Positions 43,148-49,577 of a stretch of DNA of 49,577 nt are shown here, piece after piece. The position numbers were made by a program, and so were the translations under genes. The number at the start of each line of letters is the position of its first letter. Within the stretch, counting starts at the first letter, position 1. The notes beneath the pieces were generated by a model. The model searched no databases, was not told the origin of the DNA, and saw only the letters and a list, made by a program, of their open reading frames with translations. The stretch comes from Planctomycetota bacterium (GTDB lineage Bacteria; Planctomycetota; Planctomycetia; Pirellulales; Thermoguttaceae): assembly GCA_030612765.1 (NCBI GenBank), contig JAUWNG010000011.1, positions 1-49,577 of the forward strand, written 5' to 3'.

Positions 43148-43619
43148 GGCTGACGGTCCTTTCGAGAAATGGTTGTATTGATGGCGTGACGGGAATGTCT
43201 TAACGGGAGGCTAATGATTTACCTTGGCGCTGTCAACCACCCGCTACGTCGCGGAAGAGCCGCTTGCGGCTTCGCAACCAGCGCCTGGTCGATAAACGTT
43301 GTCTCGAACTCAGGTTCCAATATTCCTCGCCGCGCCCCGAATTACGTATATCCAGGGAAACTATCCCCGCCCCATCGGCAAGCGATTTCCGGAAAGCTTC
43401 CAATAACGAGGGCCGTGTGGTACACTGCCCCCAGCAAAGTTGACTTGCGTGATATTGGGGGGATACCGCTTGTTTAGCCCCGGCGTCCACGCCGGGTGCG
43501 CAACATAACGGGAAAGCCATTTGTTCCCGGCGTGGACGCCGGGGCTAAACAAGCTTGCCCGGAATCACGTAAGTATATTCGGCACAGACTTCGGAACCGA
43601 GAACTGAGGATCACAGCCG
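43148..43619. other. Intergenic region with repeats; probable divergent promoters
   Basis: No gene is supported. It contains the 20-bp AGCCGCTTGCGG motif (43258-43277) and the TTTAGCC palindrome copy C (43469-43555). Promoters for the sugar operon (leftward) and the secretion operon (rightward) must lie here, but none is obvious. Confidence 0.5.
43469..43555. repeat. TTTAGCC palindromic repeat, copy C
   Basis: The outer arms GCTTGTTTAGCCCCGGCGTC and the inverse ending GACGCCGGGGCTAAACAAGC are essentially perfect. The centre (GCGCAAC...GCCATTTG) resembles that of copy B at 30927-31007, so the whole element, not only its arms, is conserved. Confidence 0.8.
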
Positions 43620-44873
43620 ATGCCGCATCCAGTGGGCGACACCCTTGAGTTCAAGCTTCAAGGTCTTGACCCGGACCTGCCCGACTATGCTCCTCAATGC
43701 GTCGAGGCCGTGCTGGCCGCCGCGCATGAAGCCGGGGCCACCGACGTCCATCTGCAACCGACCGGCGCGGCGTTGGAGTTGAAGTTCCGCGTCGACGGCG
43801 TGCTGTTGCCCGCGGCCGCGCTGCCAGCCGGCGTCGCCGGAAACGTCATCGCCCGGCTGAAAGTGTTGGCCGGCCTGCTGACCTACCACACCGACCGTCC
43901 GCAGGAAGGACGCATCGTAAGACAGGTTGCCAACCTGTCCCACGGTAAAACAAGACAGATTGCCAACCTGTCCCACTCCGAAGTCGAGATGCGCGTCTGC
44001 ACCTATCCGACCTTGCACGGTGAGCGGGCCGTGGTGCGGCTCTTCGCCGGCGCGGGGCGATACCAACGTCTCGACGATCTCGGTCTGCCGGAAGACACGG
44101 TCGGGCCGCTGCAAAAACTGTTGGGCGAGACCTCGGGCGCGATACTCGTCTCCGGCCCCGCCGGCAGCGGAAAAACCACCACCGTCTATGCCTGCCTCCG
44201 CGAGATCGCCCGGCGTTCCGCGGGCGCGAGGAGCCTCGTCTCGATCGAAGACCCGGTCGAGGTGGCGGTCGATGGCGTGGCCCAATCGCAGATTCATCAG
44301 CCATCGGGCCTGGACCTGGCCGCCGGATTGCGGTTCCTCATGCGCCAGGATCCCGAGGTTATCATGGTGGGCGAAATCCGCGACCGCACCACCGCCGAGG
44401 AAGCGCTCCGGGCATCGCTGACCGGACACCTCGTGCTGAGCACCTTCCACGCCGGAAGCGCCGCCGAGACCATCGGCCGGCTCTCCGACATGGGCATCGA
44501 GCCTTACGTGCTCCGTAGCGGAGTGTTGGCGATACTGAATCAACGTCTGTTGCGGCGATTGTGTACTTGTGCCGAGCCGAGCGAAAGGCCGGAAGACCGG
44601 CTCGGGCTGGACGTTCGGCGGGCGATGGTCCCGCGCGGCTGCGCCGAGTGCGGACAGACCGGATATCGAGGGCGGTTCCTGCTGGTCGAGGTGCTCGTGC
44701 TCTCGCGCAGCGAACTGGCTCGGGCCGTACTCGACCGCCGCGATACGCCGACCATCGAGCGGTTGGCGGCCTCCTCGGGCATGATCGGCCGCTGGTCGAG
44801 GGCCTATCGAGCCGTAGATCAAGGACTGACCAGTTCGGCCGAAGTCCGTCGCGTACTGGGGTTTTCCACGTAA
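43620..44873 (+). CDS. GspE/PilB-type secretion or pilus-assembly ATPase
   Basis: A 417-residue traffic ATPase that powers pseudopilus or pilus assembly. It lacks the long GspE N-terminal domain. It has ATDVHLQPTGAALELKFRVDG, Walker A SGPAGSGKTTT (Lys185), the Asp box SIEDPVE, Walker B PEVIMVGEIRD, the His box LTGHLVLSTFHAG and a C-terminal tetracysteine zinc motif (LCTC, then CAECGQTGYRGR). Residues ~100-121 (RQVANLSHGKTRQIANLSHS) are an in-frame insertion of a dispersed repeat between two conserved strands (RPQEGRI and EVEMRV). It is the first gene of a six-gene operon with three GspF-like proteins and two prepilins. Confidence 0.93.
   Translation: MPHPVGDTLEFKLQGLDPDLPDYAPQCVEAVLAAAHEAGATDVHLQPTGAALELKFRVDGVLLPAAALPAGVAGNVIARLKVLAGLLTYHTDRPQEGRIVRQVANLSHGKTRQIANLSHSEVEMRVCTYPTLHGERAVVRLFAGAGRYQRLDDLGLPEDTVGPLQKLLGETSGAILVSGPAGSGKTTTVYACLREIARRSAGARSLVSIEDPVEVAVDGVAQSQIHQPSGLDLAAGLRFLMRQDPEVIMVGEIRDRTTAEEALRASLTGHLVLSTFHAGSAAETIGRLSDMGIEPYVLRSGVLAILNQRLLRRLCTCAEPSERPEDRLGLDVRRAMVPRGCAECGQTGYRGRFLLVEVLVLSRSELARAVLDRRDTPTIERLAASSGMIGRWSRAYRAVDQGLTSSAEVRRVLGFST
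43918..43980 (+). repeat. Tandem ACAGGTTGCCAACCTGT repeat inside the ATPase gene
   Basis: Two direct copies of AAGACAGGTTGCCAACCTGT-CCCAC (the second with one change) lie 30 bases apart. Each is a perfect or near-perfect hairpin (ACAGGTTG/CAACCTGT). They keep the reading frame and add about 22 residues to the ATPase. Confidence 0.8.
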
Positions 44874-44910
44874 ACAACTACCCACTACCCACTATCCACT
44901 ACCCACTGCT
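44874..44910 (-). repeat. CACTACC heptamer array between ATPase and first GspF
   Basis: CTACCCA, CTATCCA and CTACCCA units follow the ATPase stop and end just before the gspF1 start. This is the reverse complement of the GTAGTGG family. In this orientation the plus strand has no stop codons, so the array stays open in frame with gspF1. Confidence 0.75.
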
Positions 44911-44917
44911 TCCCGCC

Positions 44918-45970
44918 ATGACCCTTGAACAGTTCATCGCCCTGAACGAGGAAATCGCGGCCCTGGTCCGCTCCGGCGTGCCGCTGGACCAGGGGCTTGC
45001 GGCACTCGGCGACGACATGCCCGGCCGGCTCGGAAAGGCCGCCACGGCAGTGGCCGAGCAAACCGCGCGCGGAGAACCATTGGACAAGGCCATCTTGGAC
45101 CAGACGGTCGACTTGCCGCCGGCATATCGGGCGGTGGTCCATGCCGGGCTACGGGCAGGGCGGCTGCCCGCCGCGCTCGAGGCCGTGGCCGGATCGGCGC
45201 GACGCCTGACCGAGACCTACCGCGCCGCCGTGGTGGCCGTGGCATATCCGCTGATGATCTTCGCGCTGGTATGGCTGGCGGCGGTGGTGCTGACGACCGT
45301 GCTCGCGCCCCGGTTGGCCTCGGGGTTCCATTCGATGGACTTGCCCGGCGACCGGTTCTTCGCCGTTTTGGGCGAGATCGGCCGTTGGGCCTGGTGTTGG
45401 GGGCCGGTGGTGCCCGTGGCCGTGGTCCTCTTGCTGGCCGCGTGGTGGACGGCCTGCCGCCGCGCGGCCATGCTGCACGCCGGTTGGTCCGCCCGGATGT
45501 TGGGCGGCATGCCCTGGATCGGCCGGATGTTGCGTTGTTCGCGGGCGGCCACCTTCCTGGAAATCCTCGCGCTGTTGATCGAGAACGAAACGCCGTTGGA
45601 CGAGGCGGTCGCGCTGGCGGCCGACGCCTCCGGCGATCCGCAAACGCAACTGGCCGCCCGGCGGTTGATCGAAGTACTTCAGAAAGGTCAAACCGAGAAG
45701 GCGACGAAAGGGGGCGCTGCGGCCTTTCCGCCGCTGTTGAGTTGGATCATGTTTTCCGCCCGGCGCGAGGGTGCCCTGTTGCCGGCGCTTCAGCGCGGGG
45801 CCGCGGCCTATCACCGCCGTGCCCGGCACCAGGCCGACCTGGTCCGTACACTGATGCCGGTCGTGCTGACGGTCGTTTTCGCCGGCAGCATAACGGCTGC
45901 CTATGTTTTGACTATTTTCGCTCCGTACGTGGCAGTGCTCCACGCGCTGGGCGATGTTGCGGGAAAGTAA
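44918..45970 (+). CDS. GspF/PilC-like inner-membrane protein 1
   Basis: A 350-residue type II secretion F-family protein. Two copies of the T2SSF cytoplasmic helical domain (~5-115, with VRSGVPLDQGLAALGDDM and YRAVVHAGLRAGRLPAALEAV; and ~200-320, with FLEILALLIENETPLDEAVALAA) are separated and followed by hydrophobic helices (AYPLMIFALVWLAAVVLTTVL, VVPVAVVLLLAAWW, TVVFAGSITAAYVLTIF). GspF/PilC forms the membrane platform for the ATPase and pseudopilins. It follows the ATPase by 44 bases and precedes the second F protein by 6. The start is the ATG after the repeat. Confidence 0.88.
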   Translation: MTLEQFIALNEEIAALVRSGVPLDQGLAALGDDMPGRLGKAATAVAEQTARGEPLDKAILDQTVDLPPAYRAVVHAGLRAGRLPAALEAVAGSARRLTETYRAAVVAVAYPLMIFALVWLAAVVLTTVLAPRLASGFHSMDLPGDRFFAVLGEIGRWAWCWGPVVPVAVVLLLAAWWTACRRAAMLHAGWSARMLGGMPWIGRMLRCSRAATFLEILALLIENETPLDEAVALAADASGDPQTQLAARRLIEVLQKGQTEKATKGGAAAFPPLLSWIMFSARREGALLPALQRGAAAYHRRARHQADLVRTLMPVVLTVVFAGSITAAYVLTIFAPYVAVLHALGDVAGK

Positions 45971-45976
45971 ACGTCG

Positions 45977-47035
45977 ATGACACAATTCCACTGGCCCGGC
46001 TTCGATTCGCTCACAAAACTCTCCGCCGAGGAGACGGCCGAGCTGGCCGCGCGCGTGGCCGACCTGACCAAGGCCGGTCTGCCGCTGGCCTCCGGTCTGC
46101 GGGCGATGGCCGACGAGCTTTCCGGCCGGCGGACGCGGCGGGTGCTCCACGCCCTGGCCGACCGGCTCGACGCCGGAGAAGACCTGGCCTCGGCGATGGA
46201 GTCGCAAGGACGCCGGCTGCCGCTCTGTTTGCGTGGCATAGTCTTGGCCGGTTTACGCGGCGGGCGGCTGGCCGAAGCCCTTGAACAGTACGCCGACCTG
46301 CGCCGCAGCCGACTGGAACTGCGCCGCCGCTTGTGGCTCAGCCTGGCGTATCCGTATTTTCTGCTGGTCGTAATGGCTTTGATGGCGGTTGTAGCCAGAT
46401 TTTTTATTATCGTTCAGTTCGAGAAGATTTACGAGGATTTTGACACGGAGTTGCCTGCGATAACGGTGCTTGTTATCAACATCTCATTGCCGTTGGCGTG
46501 GATCATGGTTGCCTTGGTCGCCGTTTTCGCCACGATTCCGCTCTTGCTTGCGGTTTCGCCCGGCATTAGATGGTTGTGGCCGATGTTGTACAAGATACCG
46601 ATGATCGGCCCGCTGTTGCGTTGGGGCAACCTGAGCCAATTTTCTCGGCTGATGGCCTTGTTGTTGGAGCAGCAAGTACCCTTGCCCGACGCCTTGCGGC
46701 TTACGGCCGCGGGCTTGCACGATCCGAACCTTGCGCGAGGTTGCCGACGCGTGGCCGAGGACGTTGAGCGTGGGCAGCCGCTTTACGAGAGCATGGACCG
46801 GCGGCGGCAGTTTCCCGCCGGCATGATCCCGCTGGTCGAGTGGGGGCAGCGCACGCCCGCGCTTCCCGACGCCTTCCGCGCGACGGCCGAGATGTTCGAG
46901 GGCCGCATACTCTCGCAAGGCTCACTGTTGGAGGCCGTTATGCTGCCGCTTATGCTTATGTTAATCGGCATATTTGTGGGTTTTCTCGTCGTCGCGTTGT
47001 TCCTGCCGACGATACGTCTTATTTGTTGCTTGTAG
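45977..47035 (+). CDS. GspF/PilC-like inner-membrane protein 2
   Basis: A 352-residue paralogue of the preceding protein. T2SSF domain 1 (LTKAGLPLASGLRAMADEL, GIVLAGLRGGRLAEALEQYADL), a membrane hairpin (LSLAYPYFLLVVMALMAVVARFFI and LVINISLPLAWIMVALVAVFATIPLLLAV), T2SSF domain 2 (FSRLMALLLEQQVPLPDALRL, VEWGQRTPALPDAF) and a final helix (LMLMLIGIFVGFLVVALFLP) match canonical GspF. The membrane parts are richer in AT, which reflects hydrophobic codons rather than transfer. Canonical systems have one F protein, so paralogues in series may form a hetero-oligomeric platform. Confidence 0.9.
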   Translation: MTQFHWPGFDSLTKLSAEETAELAARVADLTKAGLPLASGLRAMADELSGRRTRRVLHALADRLDAGEDLASAMESQGRRLPLCLRGIVLAGLRGGRLAEALEQYADLRRSRLELRRRLWLSLAYPYFLLVVMALMAVVARFFIIVQFEKIYEDFDTELPAITVLVINISLPLAWIMVALVAVFATIPLLLAVSPGIRWLWPMLYKIPMIGPLLRWGNLSQFSRLMALLLEQQVPLPDALRLTAAGLHDPNLARGCRRVAEDVERGQPLYESMDRRRQFPAGMIPLVEWGQRTPALPDAFRATAEMFEGRILSQGSLLEAVMLPLMLMLIGIFVGFLVVALFLPTIRLICCL

Positions 47036-47082
47036 GGATAACAACCGATGATTTCCTTTCGGAATCTCGCAAAAAATTGATT

Positions 47083-48354
47083 ATGGAACCTGTAATAATC
47101 ATTATCGTTTTCATTGTGCCGGCGCTGATTGCCTCGGCAATTGCGTTATTTGTTTGCCGGGAATTGCATGACGCGGGATTCTACTCATGGCTGAGAAACA
47201 AACTCAGCCTCTTCGGCGCGGTCGTGGGAATCCTGGTCACGATATCGCTGTCCTTTATATGCGTTGGGATATCTTTGTTCGGGTTGAGTGTATTTGGCCC
47301 GTTATTATGCATAATATTTGCTTTCGTGTTCATCGAGGTGTATCGCAAATATCGGGCGAGCCGGCAGTACGCGCTGCTGTGGCTGTTGACCGTCTCGGCG
47401 GAGCGCGAAGTGCCGCTGACCTCGGCGCTCGAGGCCTTCGCGCGCGAACGGCGAGGATCGTTCGCGCGAAAGGCCAGACGCTTGGCCGCGTTGCTCGAGT
47501 CCGGCGTCTCGCTGTCGGACGGGTTGGACCAGGTGCGCGGCCTGTTGCCCTCCCACGCGCCGCCGATGATCCGCGTCGGCTGCCAATCGGGCGCGTTGGC
47601 CCCGGCGCTGCGCCGGGCGGCCGCGGTCAACGACCTCAACGCGCCGGTCTGGATGTCGCTGACCGGCAAGGTGGCTTACTTGGTGTTGCTGGTGTTTTTC
47701 GGTATGTCGATTCTGGTGTTTGTCTTTGGGTGGATCGTGCCGAGATTCCAGAAGATATTTTTGGATTTTGATACCCCGCTGCCGTATCTTACCGAACAGT
47801 TGGTATCCTGTTCGCAATTTTTCGTCGTTTACTGGTACTTGTTCTCGCTTTTGTTGATGCTCGGTATGCTGTTTGTGTTGTATCCGGCCGCGCGTTATTT
47901 CGGCTGGAACCCGCCCGGGCTGGGTTGGTTTACCCGGCGGCTCGACGCGGCCGATGTACTGGACGGCCTGGCCCTGGTCGCCCGGCAACAGATGCCGATG
48001 CTCGACGGACTCGACTCGCTGGCCAAATCGTATCCGAGATCGAACATCCGGATGCTGCTGCGTCGGGCGGCCGGCGACGTCCAGGCCGGCCGCGATTGGG
48101 CCGAATCGCTCTACTCGCGCGGCTTGATTCACCGGGCCGATCTGGCCGTGCTCCAGGCAGCCGAGCGGGTGGGAAACCTTCCTTGGGCATTGCGGGAAAT
48201 GGCCGAAAGCAACCGACGACGATTCGCTTACCGACTACAGTCGGTCGTCCAGACGGCCTTTCCGCTGGTGATAATTTTCTTTGGCGCTATCGTGGGCTTC
48301 ATCGTTGTGGCCCTGTTTATTCCCATAGTTTCACTCATTCATGCATTATCCTGA
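47083..48354 (+). CDS. GspF/PilC-like inner-membrane protein 3, with extra N-terminal helices
   Basis: A 423-residue F-family protein. Before the usual domains it has an added ~85-residue part with about three hydrophobic segments (VIIIIVFIVPALIASAIALFV, LFGAVVGILVTISLSFICVGI, LFGLSVFGPLLCIIFAFVFI) absent from the two upstream paralogues. T2SSF domains then follow (SAEREVPLTSALEAFARE, GCQSGALAPAL; ALVARQQMPMLDGLDSLA, AERVGNLPWALREMAE), and the C-terminal helix (VIIFFGAIVGFIVVALFIPIV) is typical. ATG 47083 is the first start giving the membrane segment. It lies 47 bases after gspF2 and 4 bases before the first prepilin gene. Confidence 0.85.
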   Translation: MEPVIIIIVFIVPALIASAIALFVCRELHDAGFYSWLRNKLSLFGAVVGILVTISLSFICVGISLFGLSVFGPLLCIIFAFVFIEVYRKYRASRQYALLWLLTVSAEREVPLTSALEAFARERRGSFARKARRLAALLESGVSLSDGLDQVRGLLPSHAPPMIRVGCQSGALAPALRRAAAVNDLNAPVWMSLTGKVAYLVLLVFFGMSILVFVFGWIVPRFQKIFLDFDTPLPYLTEQLVSCSQFFVVYWYLFSLLLMLGMLFVLYPAARYFGWNPPGLGWFTRRLDAADVLDGLALVARQQMPMLDGLDSLAKSYPRSNIRMLLRRAAGDVQAGRDWAESLYSRGLIHRADLAVLQAAERVGNLPWALREMAESNRRRFAYRLQSVVQTAFPLVIIFFGAIVGFIVVALFIPIVSLIHALS

Positions 48355-48358
48355 TCCA

Positions 48359-48775
48359 ATGAACCGACGCGGAATGACAATCCTGGAACTGGTCATTGCG
48401 GGCGCGCTGCTGGGTACGCTGCTGATCGTCTGTCTAAAGATGCTCGGCGCGGTGGGCGATTGGCGCCGCGAGTCCGACCGGCGGCAACTGGCGCTGTTCG
48501 AGGTCGCCAACGTCATGGAACGGATCGCCTCGCTACCCTGGGACGAACTGACGCCCGAGGCGGTCGCCGCCGTGCGGCTACCAGACAACATTCGCCAGCG
48601 GCTGCCCGGCGCGGAACTGAAGATCGAGGTCTCCGACTCGCCGCCGGCGCGGACACCGCCGTCCAAACGCATCGCCGTCTCGATCCGCCGGCGCGACCGC
48701 GCCGGCCGGATGCTCCCGCCGGTGTCGATTACGACGTGGCGGTTTTTGAGGGACGAGGGACGGATTTATGAATGA
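48359..48775 (+). CDS. Prepilin-like protein (minor pseudopilin)
   Basis: A 138-residue protein with a type IV prepilin signal MNRRG/MTILELVIAGALLGTLL; cleavage by prepilin peptidase after Gly leaves N-methyl-Met and Glu5. The hydrophobic helix is followed by a soluble domain rich in charged residues (ANVMERIASLPWDELTPE). It is probably a GspI/PilV-type minor pseudopilin. The start is set at ATG 48359 (MNRRG), with ATG 48341 inside gspF3 as an alternative. The last codons and the stop (GRIYE, TGA) run into an ATGAATG heptamer array. Confidence 0.85.
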   Translation: MNRRGMTILELVIAGALLGTLLIVCLKMLGAVGDWRRESDRRQLALFEVANVMERIASLPWDELTPEAVAAVRLPDNIRQRLPGAELKIEVSDSPPARTPPSKRIAVSIRRRDRAGRMLPPVSITTWRFLRDEGRIYE

Positions 48776-48887
48776 TGAATGATGAATGATGAATTGCCGC
48801 TTGCGGCTTCGCACTATCCACTACCCACTAACCACTAACCACTATCCACTACCCACTACCCACTACCCACTAACTACCACTACTCCC
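48745..48887. repeat. ATGAATG heptamers, AGCCGCTTGCGG motif and CCACTAC heptamers
   Basis: GAGGGAC units lie at the pseudopilin gene's end, then ATGAATG units (48765-48792) and a GCCGCTTGCGGCTTCGCA motif (48796-48813). A long CCACTAC/CCACTAA array (48814-48880) then runs up to the next start codon. Three repeat families are thus stacked between two co-directional genes of one operon. Confidence 0.8.
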
Positions 48888-49409
48888 ATGCGACGCCGCG
48901 GATTTACGCTGATCGAAATGGTTTCCGCCATAACCGCCGCCACGGTGCTGATGGGCATCGCGGTCTGCTTGTTGTGCGTCTTGATGAGGGCCGAGGGAAA
49001 CGGGCGCGAGCATCTCCAGCGAAACAACTCGCTCGACTTGCTGGCCGATCGGTTCCGCCGCGACGTCCACGCCGCCGTGGACGTGCCGAAGAAAACGAGA
49101 TATTTCGGGGATGTTTGGACTTTCCCCCTAGCGCCCGATCCCGCCGCGCATTACGTGGAATATGACGCCCGCGGTGAATTTGTTACCCGCAAGAAACATG
49201 GATTGGAAAAACCGGATAGTTGGGAAACTTACGCCCTGCCCAAGGGTTGCTCGGCACGGATCGAGACCGAAACGGCGGCCGATGGTCGGCTGGTTCGTTT
49301 GGTGATTACGCCGAAGGACGCCTCGAAGGCCGTCGGACGAGAATTGCGCATCGAGGCCATCCTCGGCCGTGACCATCGCTTCGCGCGCCGAGCAGAGGGG
49401 AGCGAGTGA
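48888..49409 (+). CDS. Prepilin-like protein (minor pseudopilin 2)
   Basis: A 173-residue protein with prepilin signal MRRRG/FTLIEMVSAITAATVLMG, cleaved after Gly with Phe+1 and Glu5, followed by a soluble domain (LLADRFRRDVHAAVDVP, FGDVWTFPL). It resembles GspJ/PilW-type minor pseudopilins. Its ATG directly follows a stop-free CCACTAC array, so there is no clear ribosome site. The operon probably continues beyond the window. Confidence 0.85.
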   Translation: MRRRGFTLIEMVSAITAATVLMGIAVCLLCVLMRAEGNGREHLQRNNSLDLLADRFRRDVHAAVDVPKKTRYFGDVWTFPLAPDPAAHYVEYDARGEFVTRKKHGLEKPDSWETYALPKGCSARIETETAADGRLVRLVITPKDASKAVGRELRIEAILGRDHRFARRAEGSE

Positions 49410-49449
49410 CATGGGACGATTTATGCGTTGCCGTTGCGGAAATGCCCGT

Positions 49450-49577
49450 GTAGGGTGGGTCAAGCCCAGCCCCGCCCCCCCAAAATTTTTACCGTTTTTT
49501 GGGGGGCCCCCGTTCGGGGGCCCCACCAACAATTGCCCCATGGCCGCCCCCCAACGGGCCACACCCCCGCGGGGGGG
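49450..49577. other. Truncated GTAGGGTGGG repeat and low-complexity window end
   Basis: The GTAGGGTGGGTCAAG repeat starts at 49450 but breaks off after about 20 bases into C-, A-, T- and G-homopolymer-rich sequence. This includes a GGGGGGCCCCCG/CGGGGGCCCC fold and a final G-run. An ATG at 49411 opens a frame, but its product is not credible. It looks like an assembly-edge artefact or very degenerate repeat sequence. Confidence 0.5.

Follow-up and report, generated by a model that had tools for sequence, protein, structure and literature searches.

Why would a single type IV filament locus encode three platform proteins, when type II secretion and type IV pilus systems normally have one F/PilC protein? 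The question is raised by the stretch of DNA analyzed here (the window), a planctomycete contig of 49,577 nucleotides (JAUWNG010000011.1), at the right end of which one GspE-type ATPase gene (E) is followed by three GspF/PilC genes (F1, F2 and F3) and then by two prepilin genes (P1 and P2). A preliminary description, made from the letters of this DNA alone, had proposed that the platform may be heteromeric. Co-retention of the three genes, five F2-F3 fusions and a position-specific loss of pore residues now strongly suggest the same. In the reading that we favor, and regard as somewhat probable, the system would be a compact type IV filament operon (E-F1-F2-F3-I-J-K-DUF1559 pilin) with an F1:F2:F3 heterotrimer as its platform.

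The operon in the window and in relatives

The features of the locus are as follows (aa, amino acids; TM, transmembrane segments).

43620..44873, + strand: E, short GspE/PilB-type extension ATPase, 417 aa (Pfam T2SSE, 5.6e-89)
43919..43976, + strand: two copies of a dispersed near-palindrome (repeat family D18), in frame inside E
44918..45970, + strand: F1, platform paralogue 1, 350 aa, two T2SSF domains, 3 TM (T2SSF, E=4e-28)
45977..47035, + strand: F2, platform paralogue 2, 352 aa, two T2SSF domains, 3 TM (T2SSF, 8e-40)
47083..48354, + strand: F3, platform paralogue 3, 423 aa, two T2SSF domains (T2SSF, 8e-25)
47083..47367, + strand: N-terminal extension of F3, three extra hydrophobic helices (hydropathy; AlphaFold2 helices 2-30, 33-40 and 43-107)
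about 48359..48775, + strand: P1, prepilin, a GspI/J/ComGE-like minor pilin (R-R-G|MTILE motif read in the sequence)
48888..49409, + strand: P2, prepilin in a GspJ-like position (N_methyl E=2e-5, TIGR02532), a second pilin conserved in relatives
49411..49577, + strand: possible 5′ end of P3, a GspK/PilX-like minor pilin, placed by its position relative to P2, which is that of P3 in a locus of the same genus (L055)

All frames are open, F1, F2 and F3 are intact and full-length with two T2SSF domains in each (Pfam), and the gaps E/F1, F1/F2 and F2/F3 measure 44, 6 and 47 bases. These frames, together with the Pfam and NCBIfam matches, bear out the three consecutive GspF-like genes behind one ATPase, followed by two prepilins, that had been described. 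The likely start of P1 is ATG 48359, directly behind the F3 stop. The window is the complete contig G000:C105, part of a 3.97 Mb draft genome, and it ends at 49577, inside the operon and 168 bases past P2, where the possible start of P3 runs into repetitive sequence. P3 and P4 (a DUF1559 pilin) are expected, from the plan of relatives, to lie beyond this end. That no GspG or GspK is visible in the window is an artefact of the contig end: relatives continue with a GspK/PilX-like pilin and a DUF1559 pilin, and the absence of the GspK-like and major-pilin genes here reflects the break of the contig rather than a gap in the system. The locus also holds 14-nt tandem repeats (CCACTAYCCACTAC) at 44873-44920, the E/F1 junction, and at 48809-48885, ahead of P2, as well as a perfect inverted repeat of 29 nt with a 29-nt spacer upstream of E (43468-43554).

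Among 60 relatives searched, about twenty have close F3 orthologues, and gene maps of the fetched loci show a repeated plan of E, F1, F2, F3, P1, P2, P3, P4. Of the 50 fetched loci, which come from about 42 genomes, 45 have F1, F2 and F3 side by side in that order. The remaining five comprise two cut by contig ends (L061, L111), an additional F2-F3 fusion copy in a genome that also has a full locus (L058), and two loci from split genomes (L115 of G428, L127 of G033) where F3 lies apart, but F1 and F2 are encoded elsewhere in the genome (L146, L147). Further named records with the set, identified by a contig scan with an F3 motif or alignment, belong to Pirellulales, Isosphaeraceae, Schlesneria and Singulisphaera; Singulisphaera acidiphila DSM 18658 has F1-F2-F3 and then P1 to P4 (near 8.01 Mb), plus one orphan F3. 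Conservation of the order in many families puts the three-F arrangement far beyond chance.

It could have been that relatives have a single F gene here and that two of the three genes are decaying. All three are kept, in order, and genomes with a dispersed operon still contain the full set. A reading of the three as redundant or decaying copies of a single ordinary GspF is already contradicted by conservation, since open reading frames (ORFs) are intact in dozens of loci, the paralogues form ancient separate clades and each has its own conserved motifs; we give the idea almost no probability, even though F3 or F2-F3 occurs as an orphan copy in some cases (L058, L115, L185, L195) and F1 is split by an inserted ORF in L123. 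The latter ORF (313 aa; L123:5961-8144) is probably an insertion sequence, and the same genome has a second, intact locus (L128). One family has a subtype (L103, L105, L107, L108, L109, L116-L120) with two extra genes of about 610 and 520 aa behind the DUF1559 pilin, the second weakly ABC2-permease-like, a longer F3 N-terminus and usually no adjoining E.

A search of the phylum (392 genomes) with the F3 profile gave matches of at least 175 bits solely in the class Planctomycetia, to which the window belongs. In the approximately 350 genomes of other planctomycete classes no match rose above the canonical PilC background; the best, about 160 bits over the shared F core, is at the level of ordinary PilC, and such outside loci (L132-L135) have one F beside PilB-type ATPases. 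This supports the earlier suggestion of a planctomycete-specific assembly machine, with phyla outside Planctomycetota covered by the contig scan only and not by a systematic profile survey. The relatives in that scan are titled Planctomycetota, a lower planctomycete taxon or plain "bacterium"; an initial scan with F2 alone found no relative, and the F3 alignment was then used. Absence by F3 search alone is unreliable and the class-wide frequency is a lower bound: G340, G378 and G025 were negative by that search, yet full divergent loci were found with E and F1 profiles, the overlooked loci (L208, L225, L227) being full sets. In G053 the same profile searches located a contig-edge locus with E, F1 and a fused F2-F3.

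Ancestry, fusions and pore residues of the platform proteins

In a quick tree of 152 rows, F1 (99), F3 (100) and canonical PilC (99) each form one side of a branch, and F2 requires one extra change. A careful 56-row tree gives 100/100 for F1 and 99/97 for canonical PilC, and the F1 and F3 clades each span several families. Since F1 and F3 are separate clades apart from ordinary PilC, the triplication is, judged by these trees, old, and the paralogues have kept distinct identities.

F2 and F3 are joined in one ORF in five lineages: L058 (G034), L059 (G017), L068 (G049), L182 (isolate RYN_438) and L226 (G053). The L068 fusion stands in a complete operon in a good assembly, that of L226 is cut by a contig end, and in that of L059 about 40 residues are duplicated internally, which may be an assembly fault. 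On the F2 tree the fusions take five changes, at least three of which are forced by well-supported branches. No F1-F2 fusion was seen among the loci mapped. The three extra N-terminal helices that had been noticed in F3 are confirmed by hydropathy, which gives three segments, and by AlphaFold2, which places extra helices ahead of the F fold (15 rows; pLDDT 82, pTM 0.73; fold match to PilC and EpsF cytoplasmic domains). By simple hydropathy the extension has three helices in most of the window's order, is absent in seven sequences and is longer in one family. In the known GspF topology the C-terminus is periplasmic. The F3 N-terminus, carried there by its three added helices, would lie on the same side as the F2 end, and it is because of this placement that an F2-F3 fusion would be permitted; it would also be the only F-F fusion to keep the topology. 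An AlphaFold2 model of the L068 fusion (17 rows, from an alignment of the fusions and F2 rows) has the order GspF-like N-domain, F fold, three linking helices and second F fold, and its Foldseek matches are, as expected, to EpsF/PilC/OutF domains only.

That F2-F3 is the sole type of fusion, and that one locus (L171) has no adjoining F1, could also speak for a heteromer of another stoichiometry, with F2 and F3 as the working core and F1 as a gate, regulator or second-stage subunit. We consider this unlikely, though it deserves some weight: L193 keeps an F1-type and an F3-type protein and no F2, and F1 is the tightest of the clades, kept in nearly all loci and in the genomes with split loci.

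The pore of the PulF trimer is lined by Y168-P169 and E370-P371 (PMC10790770), in transmembrane segments (TMS) 1 and 3, respectively. Canonical planctomycete F proteins keep both YP and EP in 15 of 17 cases. In F1 the TMS1 YP is present in 40/42, and the residue before the TMS3 proline, read by eye since the F1 columns are shifted there by one gap, is nonpolar throughout and never acidic. F2 is the most canonical of the three, with YP in 39/47 and E or Q before the TMS3 proline in 12/47. In F3 the TMS1 tyrosine is mostly kept and the TMS1 proline is lost in all sequences (49/49). The PulF-type pair of Y-P in TMS1 and E/Q-P in TMS3 is thus lacking in F1 and F3 and mixed in F2. All six cytoplasmic domains retain an L-rich G-xxxx-L-xx-(A/V)L-like patch in their consensus. 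The pattern of pore residues fits position-specific loss within a mixed ring.

Pore-residue loss by position also bears on whether the three proteins form separate homomeric platforms on one ATPase, each for a different pilin or stage (e.g., extension, tip initiation or retraction), as homotrimers of F1 or of F3 would then carry a defect at a conserved site. The natural F2-F3 fusions and the near-invariant co-retention and order argue against such platforms as well. In their favor, the platform is considered homomeric in most known systems (PMC10790770), and the locus combines a single ATPase with three F genes and pilins of several types. On balance we find separate homomers improbable, a shade more so than a heteromer of other proportions.

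Several observations weigh against the F1:F2:F3 heterotrimer. Three platform genes per locus is not an absolute rule: L171 has F2-F3 without F1 within 5 kb, and L193 has only two platform genes, F1-type and F3-type, set between E and the pilins (L193:4442-9604). In the 56-row tree the first L193 protein is sister to all F1 and the second groups with F3; the locus is possibly an intermediate, and a search for more two-F loci resembling it found none. The N-terminal helices of F3 are absent or different in number in part of the family, the model of the L068 fusion is of only moderate confidence (pLDDT 74, pTM 0.63), and the fusions may reflect mere adjacency and compatible topology. Co-retention, finally, also fits three separate homomeric platforms with different jobs.

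The ATPase, the pilins and the proposed machine

E has the motifs of its family (Walker A GPAGSGKTTT, Walker B DPEVIMVGEIRD and a C-x-C...C-x-x-C zinc-type motif) and is without the N1 domain, which in full systems binds GspL/PilM; the NCBIfam GspE model aligns only from profile position 111. It forms a dedicated class: in a search with the E profile its members score at least 466 bits and other PilB-type ATPases at most 391, the divergent E of G340 (425 bits) being the sole value in between. Genomes without an E adjoining the F locus carry a dedicated E elsewhere, except G331.

In the window's E, the near-palindrome pair (GACAGGTTGCCAACCTGTC) adds about 15 residues (VRQVANLSHGKTRQIANLS) that are absent from 12 orthologous E proteins, one of the same genus included. 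About 80 sites of this type occur across the draft genome, and the insert looks like a dispersed palindromic element residing within coding sequence. In a genome of the same genus an extracytoplasmic function (ECF) sigma factor and an anti-sigma-like gene lie between E and F1 (L056:8226-9372), and sigma-like genes are also found upstream of the loci in L052, L104, L106, L122, L128 and L131, which suggests dedicated regulation of the operon.

P1 and P2 occupy the GspI and GspJ positions of type II clusters, with family matches that are weak or absent; an orthologue of P1 has weak GspJ and ComGE matches. P3 matches the GspK N-terminus (E=1.5e-8 in L104) and, in a rough parse, is without glutamate at +5 in all cases parsed. 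P4 belongs to the DUF1559 proteins (PF07596, 1.8e-46) and also matches GspG over its N-terminal part. We also considered the triple-F machine as the cause of the planctomycete DUF1559 expansion, which is unsupported: G051 and G396, in which no triple-F locus was detected, have at least 52 DUF1559 matches. Peptidase_A24 prepilin peptidases are encoded on G000:C42, C92 and C120, unlinked to the locus.

Could tandem duplications in a type II secretion or type IVa pilus system of the ordinary kind account for the locus? E and F2 do match the GspE and GspF models, and I-J-K-like pilins follow. Every NCBIfam equivalog cut-off is missed, however, by E (336 bits against 630 for GspE) as by the F proteins (112-181 bits against 424), and the same genome has ordinary single-F systems at other sites. 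No secretin or GspC/L/M gene was noticed beside the operon in gene maps, in which neighbors were matched to eight operon profiles and read by eye, with no dedicated secretin or GspC/L/M scan; secretin genes are unlinked to the locus in the genomes searched. We judge an ordinary system very improbable.

Under the favored heterotrimer, the inner-membrane platform would consist of one F1, one F2 and one F3, replacing the homotrimer proposed for PulF, ComGB and PilC. With two cytoplasmic six-helix domains per F protein, it would present six docking domains, all non-identical, to an E hexamer with its six N2 domains. ATP hydrolysis by E would then turn and push the asymmetric platform in a rotary step, drawing DUF1559 and minor pilins out of the inner membrane to form a (pseudo)pilus that an I-J-K-like tip would cap; the filament and its export route are likewise putative. 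A stricter version, which we advance only tentatively, is an obligate 1:1:1 heterotrimer in which each jaw would do something different: one would be canonical, one would lack the ion-binding acid and one would be tethered by extra helices, which would give the motor a fixed asymmetry and dispense with the proposed PulF ion pathway.

The oligomeric state of the platform has long been debated in type IV pilus and type II secretion systems, with dimer, trimer and tetramer all proposed, and ion coupling via the platform pore was proposed recently. A set of three paralogues that have diverged and are retained together, two of them repeatedly fused, would amount to a natural heteromer whose positions can be deleted or tagged one at a time. 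A clean 1:1:1 complex, if true, would back the trimer model superfamily-wide. Whether the proposed ion channel is general can be probed in F1, which has lost the pore acid, and in F3, which has lost the TMS1 proline.

Comparison with known systems

The locus has the features of the type IV filament superfamily: a GspE/PilB-family ATPase, T2SSF platform proteins, prepilins and a genomic prepilin peptidase. It departs from type II systems, which have a single GspF, in having three per locus, and from Tad/Flp systems, where the platform is split into two single-domain proteins, in having two T2SSF domains per F. Its ATPase is not of the TadA type either: E scores 31 bits with the TadA-family model, for which the cut-off is 373, and matches the GspE model far better. 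In the open-access literature searched, no description of three full-length platform paralogues was found, the papers on platform stoichiometry giving homotrimers or the TadB/TadC split, and nothing relevant turned up on multiple GspF/PilC in planctomycetes. The locus is a variant of the superfamily for which we found no earlier description.

PulF has been crosslinked as a trimer, and ComGB and Thermus PilC have been modelled as trimers on ATPase hexamers (PMC10790770, PMC10191384, PMC13039148). The F proteins resemble PulF in their two T2SSF cytoplasmic domains, three TM segments and proposed trimer on a hexameric E, and the Y-P/E-P pairs of PulF are the reference for theirs (PMC10790770). 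PulF, however, is one protein used three times, whereas here there are three paralogues, mostly without the N-domain and with pore residues lost by position. TadB/TadC (CpaG/CpaH; PMC6668835, PMC12019362) likewise have more than one platform gene per operon and a proposed heteromeric platform, but those proteins have one T2SSF domain each and are thought to stem from fission, while F1, F2 and F3 have two each and come from duplication. Among the pilins, P1, P2 and P3 recall the GspI-GspJ-GspK tip in operon position, P3 also in lacking the +5 glutamate, and P4 recalls GspG in its N-terminal part; the differences are that P4 is a DUF1559 pilin and that P1 and P2 match known families weakly.

In overall plan the locus resembles the ComG competence pilus of monoderms (ComGA-ComGB-ComGC-GG; PMC10191384), a minimal core with a short ATPase without N1, a platform without the N-domain, 4-5 pilins and no linked secretin or PilMNOP (here none was noticed in the gene maps, which were not scanned for them specifically). 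ComG differs in its single platform protein and in having no DUF1559 pilin, and the planctomycete hosts here are diderm. The most economical reading would be a minimal ComG-like machine in a diderm host, its homotrimeric platform turned into a heterotrimer.

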